From: Actinomycetota bacterium | GTDB taxonomy: Bacteria > Actinomycetota > Acidimicrobiia > Acidimicrobiales > Ilumatobacteraceae | NCBI GenBank assembly: GCA_009702045.1 | Contig: WLIV01000023.1 | Location: 1-55,932, forward strand | DNA length: 55,932 nucleotides | Direction: 5' to 3' | Shown here: piece after piece, positions 14,482 through 45,340 of the stretch | Numbering within the stretch: the first letter of the stretch is position 1 | Layout of the letters: each line of letters opens with the position of its first letter | Notes under the pieces: model-generated | The model's input: only the letters and a program-made list of their open reading frames with translations | Database searches by the model: none | Told to the model about the DNA's origin: nothing | Made by a program: the position numbers and the translations under genes

Positions 14482-15300
14482 GTGAGCGGGGCTCCCGTGA
14501 TCGTCGCCTGCCTCAAGTGGGTCGCCCATCCGGGTGAGCCCAACGACGAGCGCTTCGCCGGCATGAGCCCGGCCGACCAGTCGGCGCTCGAGTTCGCGCT
14601 CCAGCAGGCGGCTGCGTTCGGTGTCGGCGCCATCGCCATCACCGTCGGCCCTGCCGGTGCCGACAAGGTGTTGCGCGACGCACTCGCCGCGGGCGTCACC
14701 CGCGCCGTCCGCATCCACACCGAGCGCCCGCTGATGTCCAACGACGTCGCCGCCGCGATCGCGGCCATCGTCGCCGACGCTTCGTGGGTGTGGTGCGGCG
14801 ACTACTCACTCGACCGTGGCACCGGCAGCGTGCCCGCGTTCCTCGCCGGCCGGTTCGCCGCGCAGCAGGCGCTGGGCATCATCGCTGTCGAATCCGGCGG
14901 GGCAGGTGGGAACCACGGTGTGATCACCGCCACCCGGCGCCTCGACGGTGGCCGCCGCGAACTGCTCGAGGTTGCGGCCCCCGCCGTCATCAGCGTGGAA
15001 GGCGCCACGGCCCACCTGCGCCGCGCCGGCCTGGCCGCGGTGCGTGCTGCGGGCAAAGCCACCATCGAGGTCGTGCAACCGTCCACCCCGGCCGAGCCGT
15101 ACCACGCCGTCGTGCACCCCTATCGGCCGCGTGCACGCGCCCTGGCCGCCCCCGCCGGCGATCTTGCGCTCGACCGCCTGCGTGCACTCACCGACGCTGG
15201 CGCCGCCACCGCCGCCCGCGGCGAACAGGTGACCCTCGAACCCGCAGCTGCTGCGGCCAAGATCATCGACGCCCTGAAGACCTGGGGCTACCTCGACTGA
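14482..15300 (+). CDS. fixA: Electron transfer flavoprotein beta subunit, FixA type
   Basis: 272 residues from GTG 14482, preceded by GAGG. The N-terminus VIVACLKWV, SPADQSALEFALQQA and ITVGPAGADKVLRDALAAGVTRAVRI match the EtfB/FixA fold. It pairs with FixB upstream. The order B-C-X-A differs from the classical A-B-C-X. I cannot tell from sequence alone whether this FixAB is electron-bifurcating. A large nested palindrome follows the stop and may end the transcript. Confidence 0.9.
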   Translation: MSGAPVIVACLKWVAHPGEPNDERFAGMSPADQSALEFALQQAAAFGVGAIAITVGPAGADKVLRDALAAGVTRAVRIHTERPLMSNDVAAAIAAIVADASWVWCGDYSLDRGTGSVPAFLAGRFAAQQALGIIAVESGGAGGNHGVITATRRLDGGRRELLEVAAPAVISVEGATAHLRRAGLAAVRAAGKATIEVVQPSTPAEPYHAVVHPYRPRARALAAPAGDLALDRLRALTDAGAATAARGEQVTLEPAAAAAKIIDALKTWGYLD

Positions 15301-15320
15301 CCCGGTGCGAGTGCCAGCGC

Positions 15321-15465
15321 GCCGGCCCGAGTGCCACAGGTGCACCCGAGTGGGTGGTGGCACCCTGGGTGCCACCACCCACTCGGGTAGCACGTGGCAC
15401 TCGGGCCGGCGGCGACCCACTCGCACAGGTCACCACGCACTCGGGCCGGGGGGCAGCCACTCGGG
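15321..15465. repeat. Nested perfect palindrome with CCCGAGTG/CACTCGGG repeats
   Basis: Outer arms of 17 bp (15321-15337 and 15394-15410) and inner arms of 22 bp (15344-15365 and 15367-15388, one central base) are perfect inverted repeats. The octamer CCCGAGTG occurs at 15326 and 15345 and its complement CACTCGGG at 15380, 15398, 15438 and 15458. The structure lies between fixA and the next gene. It lacks a U tract, so it may be a factor-dependent terminator, a multi-site operator or a mobile palindromic element. The last octamer abuts the -10 box of the following ORF. Confidence 0.85.
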
Positions 15466-15477
15466 TAGCGTCGGAGC

Positions 15478-15576
15478 GTGAGCCTCGAACTCACCCACGC
15501 GAACACGACCGGCATTGACGGGTCGATCGTTTTCACCGACGCCACCGGCGCGGTCATGAAAGGTTTGGCTACATGA
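15478..15576 (+). CDS. Putative leaderless 32-codon ORF coupled to PQQ-propeller gene
   Basis: GTG start exactly six bases after TAGCGT, then 32 codons beginning MSLELTHANTTG and ending VMKGLAT. The stop overlaps the ATG of the next gene (ATGA at 15573). Codon choice resembles neighbouring genes. The peptide is neither hydrophobic nor Cys-rich and does not end like a mycofactocin precursor (no C-terminal VY). It could be a small protein or a translational-coupling leader. Confidence 0.5.
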   Translation: MSLELTHANTTGIDGSIVFTDATGAVMKGLAT

Positions 15577-17150
15577 ATCAGCTCACCAAACAAGCGCTGA
15601 TTTTCGCGTTCGTGCTGGCCCTGCTCGGGGCAGGCGTCTTCGCTGTCGGCCAGGTGATCAGCAACGACAGCAGTAACGGTGCGGTCGGCACCACTCCCGC
15701 ACCGGTGAACAGCGAGACGGTCGGCACCGACACGGTCACCACCGAAACCGCATCGACCAGCAGCACCTCCACCACCTCCACCACGACCACCACGACGGCA
15801 CCCGCGGCGCTGGTCGACCCGAACTCGTTCGGCCAGCCCTGGGGCACGACGGTGCAGGGCGTCCTCACGTTCCGCGGCAACCCGACGCGCAGCTACTACG
15901 GCACCGGGCCGATCCCACAGACCAAGCCGCAGGTGCTGTGGCGTTATCCCGGCAAGAAAATGTGCGGCAGCAGCAGCGAGTACGGCAACGTGCGCACGTG
16001 GTGCGGCACCGGCTGGACCGGACAGCCGGCAGTGTTCGAGCGTGACGGACGCACCTGGTTGGTGTTCGGCGCGTACGACTACAAGATCCACTTCGTCGAC
16101 GCCGCGACCGGGCAAGACATCATCCCTCCGTTCCCCACCAAGGATCTCGCCAAGGGCAACGTCACCGTCGATCCCGACGGCTTCCCGCTGATCTACGAAG
16201 GGTCGCGCGACAACCATTTCCGCGTCATCGCCTTCGACGGTGCCGCCCCGCGTGAGCTGTACTCGATCGACGCCCACACACCCGACCGCGTACACAACGA
16301 CGACTGGGATGCTGCTGCGCTCATCGTCAACGACTACCTCGTCGAAGGCTCGGAGAACAGTTGGTTCTACGGACTGAAGCTGAACCGCGGCTATGCGACC
16401 GACGGCACCGTCACGGTTGACCCGCAGGAGGCGTTCCGCGTGCAAGGGTGGGATACCCAACTATTCCACGACCTCGGCAGCAAGGACCCCCGCCGCGTCA
16501 GTCTCGAGGCATCGGTGTCGATCAGCGGCGACACGGCGTGGCTGAACAACTCCGGCGGTCTGGTGCAGGGCTGGGATCTCTCGTCGCTACGCACCGGCGT
16601 CGGCACCGTCACCCGCACGTTCCGGTTCTGGACCGGCGACGACAGCGACTCGACGATCGTCCCCGACGCTGAGGGGTTCCTCTACGTGGGTGTCGAGGTC
16701 GACCGCGCGACCAAACGCAACGAGGAGGTCGGGCAGATGCTGAAGCTCGATCCGCGCAAACCCGACAACCCGATCGTCTGGTCGGTGCACCTACCCTTCC
16801 GCGTTGACGACGGGGTGTGGAGCACACCGATCATCGCTGGCGACGTGGTGCTCTGGACCAGCAAGCCCGGCTGGATCTACGGCATCGACAAGAACACCGG
16901 CGAGGTGCTCTGGAAGCAGAAGATCAACGGTCCTGCGCTCAGCTCACCGGCGCTCGTCGACGGCGTGCTGATCCAGGGCGACGGCGCCGGCATCCTGCAC
17001 GCATACGACCTGTCGAACCCGCGGGCGGCTCCGGTCGAACTCTGGTCGCTGGCGCTCGGTGGCAATATTGAGAGCACACCCGTCGTGTGGAAGGGCCGCA
17101 TCTACGTCGGCACACGCGCCGGTTTCGAAGTCGCCGTCGGTATTCCCTGA
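15573..17150 (+). CDS. Membrane-anchored PQQ-type beta-propeller protein
   Basis: 525 residues. A single N-terminal membrane helix (~8-28) is followed by a Ser/Thr-rich stalk (~40-75). An exported domain then carries beta-propeller repeats of the PQQ-dehydrogenase type (VDAATGQDI, IDKNTGEVLWKQKINGPALSSPALVDG). It lacks the full set of dehydrogenase residues that I would expect for a true PQQ enzyme, so a structural or sensory role is equally likely. The ATG at 15573 overlaps the upstream 32-codon ORF; AAAGG lies ten bases upstream. mftE follows 48 bases later. Confidence 0.8.
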   Translation: MNQLTKQALIFAFVLALLGAGVFAVGQVISNDSSNGAVGTTPAPVNSETVGTDTVTTETASTSSTSTTSTTTTTTAPAALVDPNSFGQPWGTTVQGVLTFRGNPTRSYYGTGPIPQTKPQVLWRYPGKKMCGSSSEYGNVRTWCGTGWTGQPAVFERDGRTWLVFGAYDYKIHFVDAATGQDIIPPFPTKDLAKGNVTVDPDGFPLIYEGSRDNHFRVIAFDGAAPRELYSIDAHTPDRVHNDDWDAAALIVNDYLVEGSENSWFYGLKLNRGYATDGTVTVDPQEAFRVQGWDTQLFHDLGSKDPRRVSLEASVSISGDTAWLNNSGGLVQGWDLSSLRTGVGTVTRTFRFWTGDDSDSTIVPDAEGFLYVGVEVDRATKRNEEVGQMLKLDPRKPDNPIVWSVHLPFRVDDGVWSTPIIAGDVVLWTSKPGWIYGIDKNTGEVLWKQKINGPALSSPALVDGVLIQGDGAGILHAYDLSNPRAAPVELWSLALGGNIESTPVVWKGRIYVGTRAGFEVAVGIP

Positions 17151-25297: not shown

Positions 25298-25753
25298 ATG
25301 AACCTCCGCAATCAGCCCCGTCGCTTTGTCATCGTCAGCGCCATCACCGGCGCCCTCGTGATGGGTCTCGCCGGGTTCGCCGCCGCCAGCTCAGGCGCCA
25401 GCCACCATGTCGAGATCGAGACACCGGCGGTGGAGCGCCCCGAAACCTCCACAGCTGACCGCTCCCCCGAGATGCCGACCACGACCGAGCAAGGTGTCGA
25501 AACCACGACCGAGCACAGTGTCGAGACCGAGACCGAGCACGGCGTCGAGACCGAAACCGAGCACGGCGTCGAGACCGAAACCGAGCACGGCGTCGAGACC
25601 GAAACCCACGACGTCTCCGGAACACACGACCTGAACGACGACAACGGCACCGCGACCAGCACCGGCAACACCACCGGCACCAGCGTCGACGACCGCGGCT
25701 CGAACAGCAACAAGGCCGGGGGCGGTAGCGGCCACAGCGGGCTTGACGGCTGA
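25298..25753 (+). CDS. Secreted Thr/Glu repeat protein, unknown function
   Basis: 151 residues. An N-terminal signal or anchor (FVIVSAITGALVMGLAGFAAA) precedes a mature domain with five 8-residue repeats of the form ETEHGVET and an acidic Gly/Asn/Ser-rich tail. The mature part is strongly acidic and low-complexity, so it is probably unfolded or cell-wall-spanning; His in each repeat could bind metal (inference). The ATG at 25298 has AAGGA nine bases upstream. It is the likely target of the neighbouring ECF sigma factor. Confidence 0.7.
   Translation: MNLRNQPRRFVIVSAITGALVMGLAGFAAASSGASHHVEIETPAVERPETSTADRSPEMPTTTEQGVETTTEHSVETETEHGVETETEHGVETETEHGVETETHDVSGTHDLNDDNGTATSTGNTTGTSVDDRGSNSNKAGGGSGHSGLDG
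25481..25600. repeat. Five tandem 24-base coding repeats
   Basis: Five in-frame 24-base units encode TTEQGVET, TTEHSVET and three copies of ETEHGVET. The last three are nearly identical in DNA, implying recent expansion, so copy number may vary between strains. Confidence 0.9.
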
Positions 25754-32691: not shown

Positions 32692-34122
32692 TCAGCGCTG
32701 GCGATCGGCCTCGGACCACGCATCGAACGCGTCCATCAACGACAGCAGCGCCTGCTCCACGACCTCACCGAGCGCGGGATGGATCCAGACCTGACCGACG
32801 GCCATCTCGTCCGCCGTGTTGCCGAGGTGCATTCCCTGGACCAGGAGTTGCACCAGTAGCGAGGCCTGCGGACCGATGACGTGGGCGCCAAGTACCGCGC
32901 GCGTGAGCGGGTCGCCGATCAACTTGCAGAACGACGTCGTGTCCTCCATCGCCCAGCCGTACGCGGCGCTGCCGTAGTGCTGGATGATCGCGCAATACGG
33001 CTGACCGGTCTGCTGGGAGCGGTGGAGTGCCTGTTCCTCGGTGAGGCCGACCGCTCCGATCTGCGGGCTGGAGAACACTGCGTGCGGCGCCGGACGGCTG
33101 TCGTACTCGCGAAGCGCATCCGGGTGCAGCAGGTTGTGACGCACCACCTTCGCTTCACCATTGGCCATGTGCTTCAACTGATGACGCCCGTTGATGTCGC
33201 CCAGTGCCCACACCCCGGGAGCACTGGTGCGGCCATACCGGTCGACCGGCACCGCACCGTCTTCGTGCATCTCGATGCCAGCGGCCTCGACGCGCAACTG
33301 GTCGCCGTTGGGACGCCGCCCCGCCGCCACCAACAGAACATCACCCTCGATCGTGCGCGATCCGCCGTCACAGGTCAGTTCGACGGAGATGCCGGTGTCG
33401 GTACGCCGCACATGTTCGATATGTGCGCCCAGCGCGAGGTCGAACCGTTCTGCGGCGAGCTCGGTGAACCGAGATGAGATGTCGTGGTCCTCGGCGCGCA
33501 ACAAGTGGTGGCTGCGGTTGATGATCGTGACCTGCGAGCCGAAGGCCTGGAAGATGTGGGCGAACTCGGCGGCGATGAACCCACCGCCGATGATCACGAG
33601 GTGCTCGGGCCGATGGGCGATGCGCATGATGCTGTCGCTGGTGTGGAACGGCGCGTCGACCAACCCGGGCACATCGGGAATGAATGAGCGAGCGCCGGCG
33701 GCGAGCACCACCCGCTCGCCGCGAATGCGGGTTCCCAGCACCTCGAGTTCGCGATCACCGACGAAGTGGGCGCCGCCCTCGTACACATCGACGTTCGCCA
33801 GACCCACGCGGTAGTTTCGCCCGCCCTCGGCGATCGGATCGATACGCCCGAAAATGCGGTGCACCATCGACTGCCAGTCGGCGCCGTCGAAGCTCGTGTG
33901 CACTCCGAGGCGCTCACCGTGACGAGCTTGCTCGGCAAGGTCGGCCGGGTACACCAGCATCTTCGTGGGAATGCAGCCGCGGTTCAGGCAGGTGCCGCCG
34001 AACACGCCACGCTCCACCATGGCGATGCGCCATCCATCCATCTCGGGGCCGATGACCGAGTTCCCGGAACCAGATCCGACGATGATCAGGTCGTACTGCT
34101 CGGCAGAGGGTGCGGTGCTCAC
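32692..34122 (-). CDS. mtr: Mycothione reductase
   Basis: 476 residues. It is an NADPH-dependent flavoprotein disulfide reductase with the redox-active Cys45/Cys50 in GTCLNRGCIPTK, the FAD site LIIVGSGSGNSVI, the NADPH site VIIGGGFIAAEFAHIF and the C-terminal catalytic His region WIHPALGEVVEQALL. It regenerates mycothiol, the actinobacterial low-molecular-weight thiol. The GTG at 34122 follows CAACCT by six bases. It is divergent from the superoxide dismutase gene across a palindromic element. Confidence 0.92.
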   Translation of the reverse strand: MSTAPSAEQYDLIIVGSGSGNSVIGPEMDGWRIAMVERGVFGGTCLNRGCIPTKMLVYPADLAEQARHGERLGVHTSFDGADWQSMVHRIFGRIDPIAEGGRNYRVGLANVDVYEGGAHFVGDRELEVLGTRIRGERVVLAAGARSFIPDVPGLVDAPFHTSDSIMRIAHRPEHLVIIGGGFIAAEFAHIFQAFGSQVTIINRSHHLLRAEDHDISSRFTELAAERFDLALGAHIEHVRRTDTGISVELTCDGGSRTIEGDVLLVAAGRRPNGDQLRVEAAGIEMHEDGAVPVDRYGRTSAPGVWALGDINGRHQLKHMANGEAKVVRHNLLHPDALREYDSRPAPHAVFSSPQIGAVGLTEEQALHRSQQTGQPYCAIIQHYGSAAYGWAMEDTTSFCKLIGDPLTRAVLGAHVIGPQASLLVQLLVQGMHLGNTADEMAVGQVWIHPALGEVVEQALLSLMDAFDAWSEADRQR

Positions 34123-34155
34123 CCGCACAGGTTGCCACGCGCCCCGCCCCTTTCC

Positions 34156-34198
34156 GTTTGAAGGCGCAACCGCACCGGGTGCGGTTGCGCCTTCAAAC
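34156..34198. repeat. Palindromic element, copy 1 (mtr-sod intergenic)
   Basis: Perfect 21-bp arms (34156-34176 and 34178-34198) around a single base, with the centre AACCGCACC-G-GGTGCGGTT. Flanking GCCCCGCCCC (34141-34150) can also pair with 34210-34219. A near-identical copy lies at 45237-45279. It sits between the divergent starts of mtr and the superoxide dismutase gene. It may be an operator, an RNA element or a small mobile palindrome. Confidence 0.85.
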
Positions 34199-34258
34199 GC
34201 AGCGGGGCGGGGGCGGGGCCGACGTTTGCGGGTTCTGCACGCGGGGTACGGTGACGAC

Positions 34259-42309: not shown

Positions 42310-45242
42310 CGGCACGCCCGCCCGGACGGCCGCGGCCCGCCGGCCTGTCGCACGGCGCACTGTCCCTCATCGCCGCGTGGTTCGCCGCGGGCACGATTGC
42401 GTTGCTCACCGGCGCGACAGCCGTGGTCATCCTGCTCGCTGTCGGCCTGGTGGCGATGATCGCGGCGGTGATCTCCGGGTGGCGTGGCGTCAGCGGCACG
42501 AGGATGCACTCGGTCGTCACCTCACCCCTCGTTGCGACCGGCGACGAGATGACGTGGCACATTGAGGTCACAGGGTCGCAGCCGGCGCATCTCATCCTGC
42601 GCCTCGCCGGTGACGGCGGTCGACAGACCGTCGCCCACGGCTGGGTGAACCCGGGCACCAGCACCATCGGCGGCACCGCGCCCCGCCGTGGCGTGTACCG
42701 CGCGGTCGAGGCCGAGTGGTGCAGCGCTGGTCGTGTTGGCCTGGTGTGGTGGCGTCGGCGCTGCCGGCTGACGATCACTGAGCTCGTGGTCGCACCGCGC
42801 GCTGCTGCCGATGGTGCCCCACTGGCGCTGGCCACCGACGAGGCCGAAGGCGAACGGGTAACGAGCACACACCCGGGTCGCGACGAGCTCGACGGCGTGC
42901 ACTCATGGCGCGACGGCGACGAGCTCACCGGCATCCATTGGCCCTCCACGCTGCGCACCGGCGAGTTCGTCGTGCGTCAGCGCTTCCGCGAGCACGACGA
43001 GCGATGGGTCGTGCACGCACGCACCGGCACCACCGACTCGACGGCGGAAGCGGCACGCGTTCGCCACACACTCGAACGCGGCCTGGCCGCTGGCGCAACC
43101 GTTGCAGTGCAAGTCGACGGCGGCAGCGCGGTGGATCTGGTCGACGATGCGGCAGTGCTGCACTGGGCTGCCAGGTTCGACCCGCACGATTCTGCGCAAC
43201 CCACGCTGCCGTGGTGGAAGCGGGCGGTGCTCGTCTCGCCGGAGCCGGATCGAGCGCTGTCAGCCACTGCGCGCCGGTTGCTCAGCATCGCTACAGCGGT
43301 CAGCATGCTGATGGTCCTCGAACCGCTCGGGTATGGGTCGACAGCGGTAGCGGTGGTGCTCACCGCCGTGCTCGTGGCCGCGCTCGTCACCGGATCTCGC
43401 CGCCAACTTCCCGACGTCTACCGCCAGCTGCTCGGACTCGTCGCAGGTGTCGCCGTCGGTGCAGTGCTCATCGATTTCACTGCGATCGACAGCGTCGGCG
43501 CGTCACTTCGATATTTGCTGCCACAGGTGTTGGTCAGCCTGGTCGTGATGCAGGGCTTCGAGTGTGTCGATCGCCGAGGAGCGCGAGTCACCCTCGCCTG
43601 CGCCGCGGTGCTCACCGCCTACGCGGCGGGCATCCGGATAGATGACCATCTCTCGCTGTGGCTGCTTGCCGCTGTGGGCTCGATGGCGATCGCGTCGCAT
43701 CAGGTCGGTCGACACCGCCAACTCCACCCACGGCCATGGCACTCGAACGTCACCCGGGTGGTGTCGTTCCTCGTCGCCGCGGCCGCCGTCGTGGCGATTC
43801 TGGCCGTCGTGCCGGTGCCGCGCGGGCCTGCGCAGTTGACGCTGCCCACCTGGCTGACGGAGTTGCGACCCACACAGGGCCGCGGTGAGCTGGCCGCGGC
43901 GGACGGATCGCCGTTGCTCGGCGGCCCGACCAACAACCGCACCAGCGCAGCGGGTGCCAGTGGGTATCCAGGGTTCAGCACCACCATGGACACGTCGCTG
44001 CGCGGCGATCTCGGCGACGAGGTGATCCTGCGTGTGCGGTCGCCGTACCCCGACTTCTGGCGCGGCCAGACGTTCAGCAACTTCGACGGTCGCACGTGGT
44101 ACGTGGAGGACGGCACCGCCAACGTGAAGGCCGACCGTACCGAAGGTCCCGACCACCTGCTGAAGCTCGCCGACGGTGACGCTTCGCTCTACGGCAACGA
44201 CGAGATGGTGCAGACCTTCTATTTGCAGGTCGATATGCCGAACATCGTCTTTGCCGCCTACCGGGCCAAGCGGGTGTTGTTGAACGCTCCGCTGTGGCAA
44301 CGCTCCGACGGCGCATTGCGTGCCGATGTGGTGTTGCCGGCGGGAAGCGCCTACACGGTGGTGTCCGACCGCACGGAGGCCACCCCGGACGTACTGCGCA
44401 GGTACGGAGATCTCGCCCGATTCGGTAGCCCCGGGCGCTACCTGCAACTTCCGGACTCGGTCACCGACCGCACCCGCGCACTTGCCCGCGAGATCACCGC
44501 CGGATCGACCACGACGTACGACGCGATCCGCGCAATCGAGTCATGGATGAACGCCAACATCACCTACGACCTGAGCGCTCCGGTGCCGCCCGAGGGCACT
44601 GACTCCGTCGACCAGTTCCTGTTCGAATCGCAGACCGGTTTCTGCGAACAGATCGCAACGGCCACGGCGATCATGTTGCGCACCTTGGGTATCCCGGCTC
44701 GCATCGCCACCGGTTACGTACCCAGTTCACGCGACAAGGTCGCCGGGGTCTGGATCAGCCGCGCTCGCGATGCCCATGCCTGGGTCGAGGTGAACTTCCG
44801 CGATCCGGGGTGGATCGCTTTCGACCCCACTGCATCCGTACCGCTCTCCGGCGAGGCCAGGTTGCACACGATCGGCGCCGACCTCGCCGCAGCCATCGGT
44901 GCGGTCATCGGCGAGCACATCACGCTTGTACTGCTGGTGGCGCTCGGTGGGGCCGCTCTACTCGTCGCCGTCCGGCTCACCCGGCGCTGGTGGCGGCGTC
45001 GCCGTCGTGGCCGATGGGGTCTGTTGCAGGACCACTTCGCCGCCGAAGCAGTCGCTCGCGGCGCACCGCCTACGGCTGCGAACGCACAACTGGCGGCGGC
45101 CTTCACGGACGACGACGCGATCGCGGCCACGGCGGCGGCGCTGGCGGCCGAACTGGATGCGTCCGCCTTCTCCGCCACCTGGGTCGACGACGACGAGACC
45201 TACGCCCGCACCCGCGCCGCCCTCCGCTCACTCCGCGTGTGA
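42276..45242 (+). CDS. DUF58-transglutaminase fusion membrane protein
   Basis: 988 residues from ATG 42276. Part 1 (~1-310): two membrane helices and a DUF58 domain with DGVHSWRDGDELTGIHWPSTLRTGEFVVR. Part 2 (~320-530): several membrane helices of the TgpA/DUF3488 type. Part 3 (~555-870): a transglutaminase core, TGFCEQIATATAIMLRTLGIPARIATGYV (catalytic Cys) and AHAWVEVNF (His), then a helix and a basic cytoplasmic tail. In most actinobacteria the DUF58 and transglutaminase proteins are separate genes; here one frame covers both. The stop lies inside a palindromic element. Confidence 0.88.
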   Translation: MSRSGRRTAPLTARPPGRPRPAGLSHGALSLIAAWFAAGTIALLTGATAVVILLAVGLVAMIAAVISGWRGVSGTRMHSVVTSPLVATGDEMTWHIEVTGSQPAHLILRLAGDGGRQTVAHGWVNPGTSTIGGTAPRRGVYRAVEAEWCSAGRVGLVWWRRRCRLTITELVVAPRAAADGAPLALATDEAEGERVTSTHPGRDELDGVHSWRDGDELTGIHWPSTLRTGEFVVRQRFREHDERWVVHARTGTTDSTAEAARVRHTLERGLAAGATVAVQVDGGSAVDLVDDAAVLHWAARFDPHDSAQPTLPWWKRAVLVSPEPDRALSATARRLLSIATAVSMLMVLEPLGYGSTAVAVVLTAVLVAALVTGSRRQLPDVYRQLLGLVAGVAVGAVLIDFTAIDSVGASLRYLLPQVLVSLVVMQGFECVDRRGARVTLACAAVLTAYAAGIRIDDHLSLWLLAAVGSMAIASHQVGRHRQLHPRPWHSNVTRVVSFLVAAAAVVAILAVVPVPRGPAQLTLPTWLTELRPTQGRGELAAADGSPLLGGPTNNRTSAAGASGYPGFSTTMDTSLRGDLGDEVILRVRSPYPDFWRGQTFSNFDGRTWYVEDGTANVKADRTEGPDHLLKLADGDASLYGNDEMVQTFYLQVDMPNIVFAAYRAKRVLLNAPLWQRSDGALRADVVLPAGSAYTVVSDRTEATPDVLRRYGDLARFGSPGRYLQLPDSVTDRTRALAREITAGSTTTYDAIRAIESWMNANITYDLSAPVPPEGTDSVDQFLFESQTGFCEQIATATAIMLRTLGIPARIATGYVPSSRDKVAGVWISRARDAHAWVEVNFRDPGWIAFDPTASVPLSGEARLHTIGADLAAAIGAVIGEHITLVLLVALGGAALLVAVRLTRRWWRRRRRGRWGLLQDHFAAEAVARGAPPTAANAQLAAAFTDDDAIAATAAALAAELDASAFSATWVDDDETYARTRAALRSLRV

Positions 45243-45279
45243 AGGCGAAACCGCACCGGGTGCGGTTTCGGCTTCAAAC
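45237..45279. repeat. Palindromic element, copy 2 (3' end of transglutaminase gene)
   Basis: Arms 45237-45257 and 45259-45279 (two mismatches) around a single base, with centre AACCGCACC-G-GGTGCGGTT and right arm ending CTTCAAACGCA, the same as copy 1 at 34156-34198. The upstream gene's TGA (45240-45242) lies within the left arm. It could serve as a terminator, although no U tract follows. Confidence 0.85.
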
Positions 45280-45283
45280 GCAT

Positions 45284-45340
45284 GAGGCGCGGGGCGCGGG
45301 TCAGGGCGGGGCGCGGGTGAGGCGCGGGGCGCGGGTCAGG
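45284..45340. repeat. G-rich direct repeats after palindromic copy 2
   Basis: Two identical 22-base direct repeats (45284-45305 and 45319-45340) starting GAGGCGCGGGGC, separated by 13 related bases. Copy 1 of the palindrome is likewise followed by a G-rich run (34204-34219). G runs could form quadruplex structures. Confidence 0.8.

Follow-up and report, generated by a model that had tools for sequence, protein, structure and literature searches.

The palindromic element downstream of fixA

The analysed stretch of DNA (the window, 55,932 nt) contains a fixA/ETF-like gene whose stop codon (15298–15300) is followed, from 1 nt beyond, by a palindromic element. The features of the locus are listed here with coordinates and strand.

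14497–15300, plus strand: upstream gene, fixA/ETF-like (PF01012), stop codon abutting the element (own gene finder and Pfam)
15302–15466, no strand: whole element, one of 31 genome copies (inverted-repeat scan, genome search, RNA fold)
15308–15313, minus strand: left unit 3, CGAGTG, degenerate octamer
15321–15337, no strand: left arm of the outer perfect pair, 17 nt, pairing with 15394–15410 (by reading)
15326–15333, minus strand: left unit 2, CCCGAGTG (octamer count)
15344–15388, no strand: central hairpin with perfect arms of 22 nt and a loop of 1 nt; CGAGTG is 33 nt from CACTCG
15345–15352, minus strand: left unit 1, innermost, CCCGAGTG (octamer count)
15380–15387, plus strand: right unit 1, innermost, CACTCGGG (octamer count)
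15394–15410, no strand: right arm of the outer perfect pair, 17 nt (by reading)
15398–15405, plus strand: right unit 2, CACTCGGG (octamer count)
15418–15423, plus strand: right unit 3, CACTCG, degenerate octamer
15438–15445, plus strand: right unit 4, CACTCGGG (octamer count)
15458–15465, plus strand: right unit 5, CACTCGGG (octamer count)
15573–17150, plus strand: downstream gene, beta-propeller-like protein (Pfam match below cut-off)

The two concentric perfect inverted repeats of 17 and 22 bp described in the first-pass annotation were confirmed in length and position by an inverted-repeat scan and by reading the sequence. The inner arms (15344–15365/15367–15388) are 22 nt long and 100% complementary, with a loop of 1 nt. 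The outer perfect pair (15321–15337/15394–15410; 17 nt, by reading) is contained in a 36-nt pair with 81% complementarity (15302–15337/15394–15429). The six octamers (CCCGAGTG/CACTCGGG) previously counted in 15321–15465 were found again, starting at 15326, 15345, 15380, 15398, 15438 and 15458. The whole window holds 10 such octamers, compared with 4.06 ± 1.83 in shuffled sequences, and none of 100 shuffles reached 10. With two additional degenerate units (CGAGTG at 15308 and CACTCG at 15418), the element (~15302–15466) is slightly bigger than first described.

The predicted RNA fold of the element has an energy of −132.4 kcal/mol, with z-scores of −8.7 (plus strand) and −9.2 (minus strand) against 60 shuffles per strand. 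As had been observed before, no U tract follows the palindrome, and a terminator scan of 15250–15620 gave no hits. Rfam returned nine matches at E ≤ 1 for positions 15000–15800 and none above the gathering score; all nine were models of animal or viral microRNAs that scored far short of gathering (the best was mir-607, with 47.2 of 94 bits). Phage and plasmid collections held no similar DNA at E ≤ 1e-5, and one exact two-unit pattern had no match in viral contigs. In the literature on REPs and terminators, we found no description of a CGAGTG/CACTCG family, which does not prove that there is none.

Copies in the genome and in the nearest relative

The first-pass annotation proposed looking for the octamer elsewhere in the genome and in relatives. 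This revealed a dispersed two-strand family (family A, CGAGTG/CACTCG), while the short motif alone is mostly due to chance, since an exact 9-mer search gave 123 hits and its reversed control 90. A BLAST search of the element against its own genome (3.65 Mb, 56 contigs) gave many matches on both strands that were resolved to 31 places; 40 of 82 candidates were scored, and weak copies may be missing from this count. A covariance model built from 29 copies found 30 places, each on both strands, and the 31st copy is cut by a contig end (C34). Contigs C11 and C34 of this genome and C247, C453 and C315 of the nearest relative (G009) break off within the element or right at it, with C315 ending where fixA does; the repeats seem to fragment the assemblies.

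Every copy has a central inverted pair CGAGTG/CACTCG about 33 nt apart and up to five more direct units of 18–20 nt outward on each side. The hexamer distance was 33 nt, or 34 nt in 3 of 29 cores, and the core length was 39 nt in 26 and 40 nt in 3 of 29; as the cores were selected by the hexamers and their spacing, the invariance of the hexamers is by construction. Unit spacings were 17–20 nt (112 values) or 28 nt (3 values), with none of 21–27 nt. The remaining spacings comprised nine values of 7–12 nt (overlapping chance motifs) and four values of at least 39 nt. A 5-mer count gave up to 6 units on either side, the innermost included. In 12 of 31 copies, one side holds the innermost unit alone, and the outer stem therefore cannot form there. 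Cores that lack an array on one side frequently terminate there in CTTTCGAGTG or CACTCGAAAG.

The hairpin interior is variable among copies. Pairing of the inner stem scored 277, compared with 239 ± 8.9 when the right arms were re-dealt among the copies, and none of 5000 re-dealt sets reached 277. Hence, the arms fit their own partners better than re-dealt ones; with related copies, this is support rather than proof. Units within one arm were slightly homogenised (identity of 0.692 versus 0.665). Of 30 copies, 21 had RNA folds with z ≤ −3 on each strand. The other nine were L068, L072, L074, L075, L076, L077, L078a, L083 and L084, with z-scores as weak as −0.9/−1.2 (L077) and −2.2/−0.1 (L072). 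A U tract was absent from the 30 cores: the longest T run within 15 nt on both sides was 2.

The copies lie predominantly at gene ends. According to gene calls from a simple codon-usage gene finder made for this analysis, 28 of 31 copies start within ~20 nt of the stop codon of a gene reading into the copy (the exceptions are L064, L080 and L084). The flanking genes are tandem for 17 copies, convergent for 11 and divergent for 1; the other 2 copies are at contig ends. The divergent fraction (1 of 29) was smaller than in an unrelated second palindrome family of the same genome (7 of 23; Fisher p 0.016) and than among predicted neighbours at least 60 nt apart (25 of 92; Fisher p 0.0045), a background taken from the same fetched loci with the element gaps included. 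Many identical copies at operon ends with mapped 3′ ends had been named in the first-pass annotation as the mark of a standard terminator; the many copies at gene ends agree with this, but they are not identical.

The second palindrome family showed no orientation bias among 24 sites (9 tandem, 7 divergent, 7 convergent and 1 unknown), one of which (L204) was flagged inside a predicted gene. In the window, it is present at 34121–34233 and 45198–45318 (core CGTTTGAAGGCG..CCGCACC and complement), and it has 53 matches genome-wide. The window also contains tandem 24-nt repeats rich in GAGACCGA at 25453–25613, within the predicted gene 25298–25753.

The comparison with G009 was made from its copies to those of the window's genome (G000). 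The flanks of the 20 fetched G009 loci align at 88–96% to element loci of G000. These loci hold 22 copies (21 cores were found by pattern; the L157 core was missed by it and is present in the alignment), and 21 of the 22 lie inside alignments, corresponding to 20 distinct G000 copies, as L151 and L154 match the same one. Thus, a genome assembled independently of G000 holds counterparts of 20 of the 31 copies. The G009 contig ends at fixA, so the counterpart of the window copy could not be checked there. Ten of the 19 aligned pairs differed in their number of units, by as many as three (counted by eye), showing that 20-nt units have been gained and lost.

One G009 copy (L146:2521, G009:C390) has no counterpart in G000. 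It is 97.6% identical over 83 nt both to its neighbouring copy and to the G000 copy L076, and it lies between divergent predicted genes, where the gene order of the two genomes breaks. Judging from the alignments, it may be a recent copy, or else a rearrangement or an assembly joint.

Compensatory changes in orthologous stems were few and not clearly above chance. Three valid paired double changes were found (two in L142/L062 and one in L156/L081), where about 3 doubles of any kind are expected, and two more were seen by eye in L153/L073, a pair left out of the count for its length. The count had misplaced two rows, L150 (paired with the second L078 core) and L146 (a non-orthologous copy), and two of the five paired double changes it listed were false (L150 row). 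Of the single changes, 15 break a pair and 23 make one, with the two misplaced rows included.

Distribution and other repeats at the same gene ends

The covariance model identified family A in 12 of 61 genomes: G000, 8 of 14 others of the genus and 3 of 22 from the rest of the family. None was found in 24 genomes of other families of the order; the filters were strict and lose weak matches, and the model was built on G000. The hexamer context is altered in distant genomes (e.g. CACTCGGATGG in G005 and GACTCGGATGG in G013), and the clusters picked up there had a core distance of mostly 34–35 nt and a unit step of mostly 18–20 nt.

Few positions were shared when the flanking genes of 31 loci of more distant genomes were compared, with hits of 28–32% identity not counted as orthologous. 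L164 matches L072 on both flanks, and the matches of L162/L060, L187/L069 and L179/L071 are partial. In the 12 other genomes of the genus that were read, fixA is not followed by a visible array, and the gene content downstream of fixA differs between species. A Pup-ligase gene stands beside an element both in G000 (L071:4258–5634) and in a genome of another genus, G031 (L179:2655–4010), with a protein identity of 90%; gene and adjoining element were possibly transferred together.

Two convergent gene ends were followed through the genus. At the methyltransferase end (L072 site), CGAGTG or CGAGTC arrays were seen by eye in G002, G004 and G006, and GGGCGCGATTC repeats were present in G010 and G014. 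At the amidohydrolase end (L063 site), GGGGGTTTC repeats were present in G003 and G001, a different perfect palindrome in G014 and a simple hairpin in G004; several genomes had no visible repeat there. The GGGCGCGATTC and GGGGGTTTC repeats were confirmed by search matches at both places each. Species that lack family A have repeats of other families, in two cases at exactly the gene end concerned.

The GGGGGTTTC family (family B, called GGGTTTC) had 25 matches in G003, 20 in G001 and 2 in G011, some places being matched on both strands; the 16 other genomes, among them G000, had no match. Its inner distance was 26 nt (16 loci) or 27 nt (3 loci) in the 19 of 20 loci where it was measurable. Within a search range of 10–35 nt, its outer steps were 17–19 nt (17 values) or 27–29 nt (19 values), with none of 20–26 nt, and left and right outer steps differed by ~10 nt in 13 of 17 copies with both. 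Ten of the 20 loci were convergent, 7 tandem and 3 divergent.

The GGGCGCGATTC family (family C) had 15 matches in G010, 9 in G009, 7 in G000, 5 in G014, 2 each in G004 and G008 and 1 in G002; its inverted-unit layout was recognised by eye. It constitutes a third repeat family of G000 (C55:71451–71533, C5:26089–26174, C9:14091–14171 and C9:4100–4184; L273, L280, L287 and L290).

The tails of orthologous genes also folded: z ≤ −2.8 was reached in 11 of the 18 that were long enough, compared with 1 of 15 among the window's other 3′ ends. The 20 tails considered (2 of them too short) were chosen by eye from 31 and are a favourable subset. The 11 left out had little or no gap, a contig end or other neighbours, and 35 orthologue tails had been printed in all, 4 of them from G000/G009.

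With about thirty copies mostly after stop codons and repeats of similar layout in relatives, the evidence points to the palindrome being one copy of a genome-wide gene-end family and not a one-off operator.

Known systems and probable function

Family A works like both REP/REPIN sequences and terminators, by analogy most like the former. REPINs are described in the excerpted text of PMC3116915 as having conserved ends and a spacer constrained in length and hairpin capacity, and inverted short conserved ends with such a spacer were also found here. As with REPs, the repeats are dispersed outside genes, for the most part at 3′ ends where the neighbouring genes are tandem or convergent, and they form lineage-specific families, several per genome; REPs described elsewhere are found chiefly in gaps between unidirectional or convergent genes, and many of them are less than 20 bp from the ORF end (PMC3733652, in excerpt). 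Family A differs in that the genus yielded no RAYT, neither a GTAG nor a CGTC tag is conserved, and arrays of direct ~20-nt units in variable number flank the core.

The RAYT domain (Y1_Tnp, PF01797; E ≤ 0.001) was found in none of 14 genus genomes (G000–G010 and G012–G014), nor in G024 and G031, while 5 of 14 well-known genomes used as a control were positive. RAYT-driven spread was rejected on its absence from the genus genomes searched. G021, from another genus of the family and also with CGAGTG elements, has two PF01797 matches (C72:106577–106903 and C8:188–514; L210 and L211). Within 15 nt beyond the core, GTAG was seen at 2 of 60 ends (window copy and L061) and CGTC at 2 of 60 (L070 and L073), both by eye. 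Tags on REPs have been described chiefly for Proteobacteria, with GTAG REPs linked to RAYT transposases (PMC3733652 and PMC2817692). For CGTC REPs, the excerpt of PMC3733652 reports a dedicated transposase to be absent, so a missing RAYT alone is not new. Acidimicrobium ferrooxidans appears in a table of candidate REP counts (excerpt of PMC12306157).

BIMEs are likewise mosaics of repeated units in intergenic DNA, but their REPs alternate in orientation (PMC2817692, as excerpted), whereas the orientation in family A flips once, at the centre. With intrinsic or clustered-hairpin terminators, family A shares GC-rich hairpins just after the stop codon; it differs by the missing U tract and by a primary sequence common to 31 sites. 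Poly-U is reported as unnecessary in many genomes, and clustered hairpins without it have been proposed as intrinsic terminators (PMC8355165, in the text excerpted). Family A was not filed as a REP/REPIN because of the absence of RAYT from 14 of 14 genus genomes and of a conserved tag, nor as a canonical terminator because of the absence of a U tract.

BOX elements of Streptococcus pneumoniae are modular repeats with a variable number of an internal unit. Compared by description only, family A resembles them in its modularity and variable internal unit and differs in modules and host.

With a probability of about 0.53, we consider family A to be a REPIN-like 3′-end repeat family that putatively acts mainly as a two-way transcript-end hairpin. 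The conserved hexamer pair at its fixed distance closes a hairpin, and direct copies of the unit ~20 nt apart extend it outward to one side or to both. Transcripts from either side could then fold at once into a long hairpin past the stop codon, which may end or shield the mRNA 3′ end and insulate neighbouring genes. A putative protein may read the hexamer at its fixed spacing and bind the elements, spread them, or both. Reading the repeat at the RNA level explains the position, the folding on two strands and the other hairpins at the same sites. Reading it at the DNA level accounts for the conservation of the hexamer, for its survival in arrays on one side only and for spacings about ten base pairs apart. 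REPINs combine both, in that a protein reads their conserved ends and their spacer is preserved in length and pairing (PMC3116915, excerpt), and this analogy led us to the reading adopted here. Against a transcript end are the missing U tract, the weak folds of 9 of 30 copies, the one-sidedness of 12 of 31, the compensatory changes that do not clearly exceed chance and the divergent G009 copy; moreover, there are only 31 places in 3.65 Mb, and a plain terminator needs no shared hexamer. If this reading is correct, actinobacterial REPIN-like ends with unit arrays, no tag and no detectable RAYT extend this kind of repeat and raise the question of what spreads it.

The interpretation in the first-pass annotation is thus retained in part. 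A transcriptional barrier is the best functional reading, given the 3′ ends, the strong two-strand folding in most copies and the near-absence from divergent gaps; past dispersal is also retained, and the multi-site operator is not.

Tentatively, a RAYT-independent system may maintain 3′-end repeats in this lineage, with the motif replaced wholesale at least twice (CGAGTG, GGGTTTC, GGGCGCGATTC) and the layout and some sites kept. As some gene-end sites and the layout, an inverted hexamer pair with outward units in steps about one helical turn apart, would persist while the motif changes, this implies a putative protein whose specificity co-evolves with the motif. Sister species that differ in the repeat family at an orthologous gene end provide a natural experiment to learn if the repeats are selected as transcript ends.

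The elements could instead act in DNA as multi-site elements, with a putative protein (a nucleoid protein, gyrase-like or a roadblock) bound to the hexamers on one DNA face and the hairpin as a by-product of the dyad. We regard this as possible but rather unlikely. Hexamer and core distance do persist in one-sided arrays and, by eye, where the inner pairing looks poor (G005 loci), the unit spacings of families A (17–20 and 28 nt) and B (17–19 and 27–29 nt) lie ~10 nt apart, and so do left and right outer steps in 13 of 17 family B copies. However, inner stem pairing exceeds the re-dealt level, and the discrete spacings could also stem from shared descent of the copies.

A selfish REPIN-like repeat without host function, tolerated at gene ends since insertions elsewhere are harmful, appears improbable. 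It would fit dispersed, lineage-specific families whose positions are mostly not common to more distant species of the genus, and L146:2521, unmatched in G000, nearly identical to its neighbour and at a gene-order break, may be recent. Against it are the absence of RAYT from all 14 genus genomes searched, the 21 of 22 G009 copies at shared sites and the fact that one gene end can hold different families from species to species. For the mobile palindrome considered in the first-pass annotation, past dispersal and perhaps one recent G009 copy remain, while the shared sites and the missing RAYT speak against it.

That the element is a multi-site operator of the gene at 15573 is very improbable: it lies between fixA and this gene and its repeated units resemble an operator array, but the 31 copies neighbour a wide variety of genes, with 28 located at a 3′ end and 1 of 29 in a divergent gap, and the 12 other genus genomes read have no array after fixA. 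An assembly artefact, which two contig ends of G000 and some of G009 falling in copies might suggest, is hardly credible, because contig breaks are expected at repeats and the same layout is found 30 more times in the genome and, for 20 of the 31 copies, at orthologous sites of the separately assembled G009.
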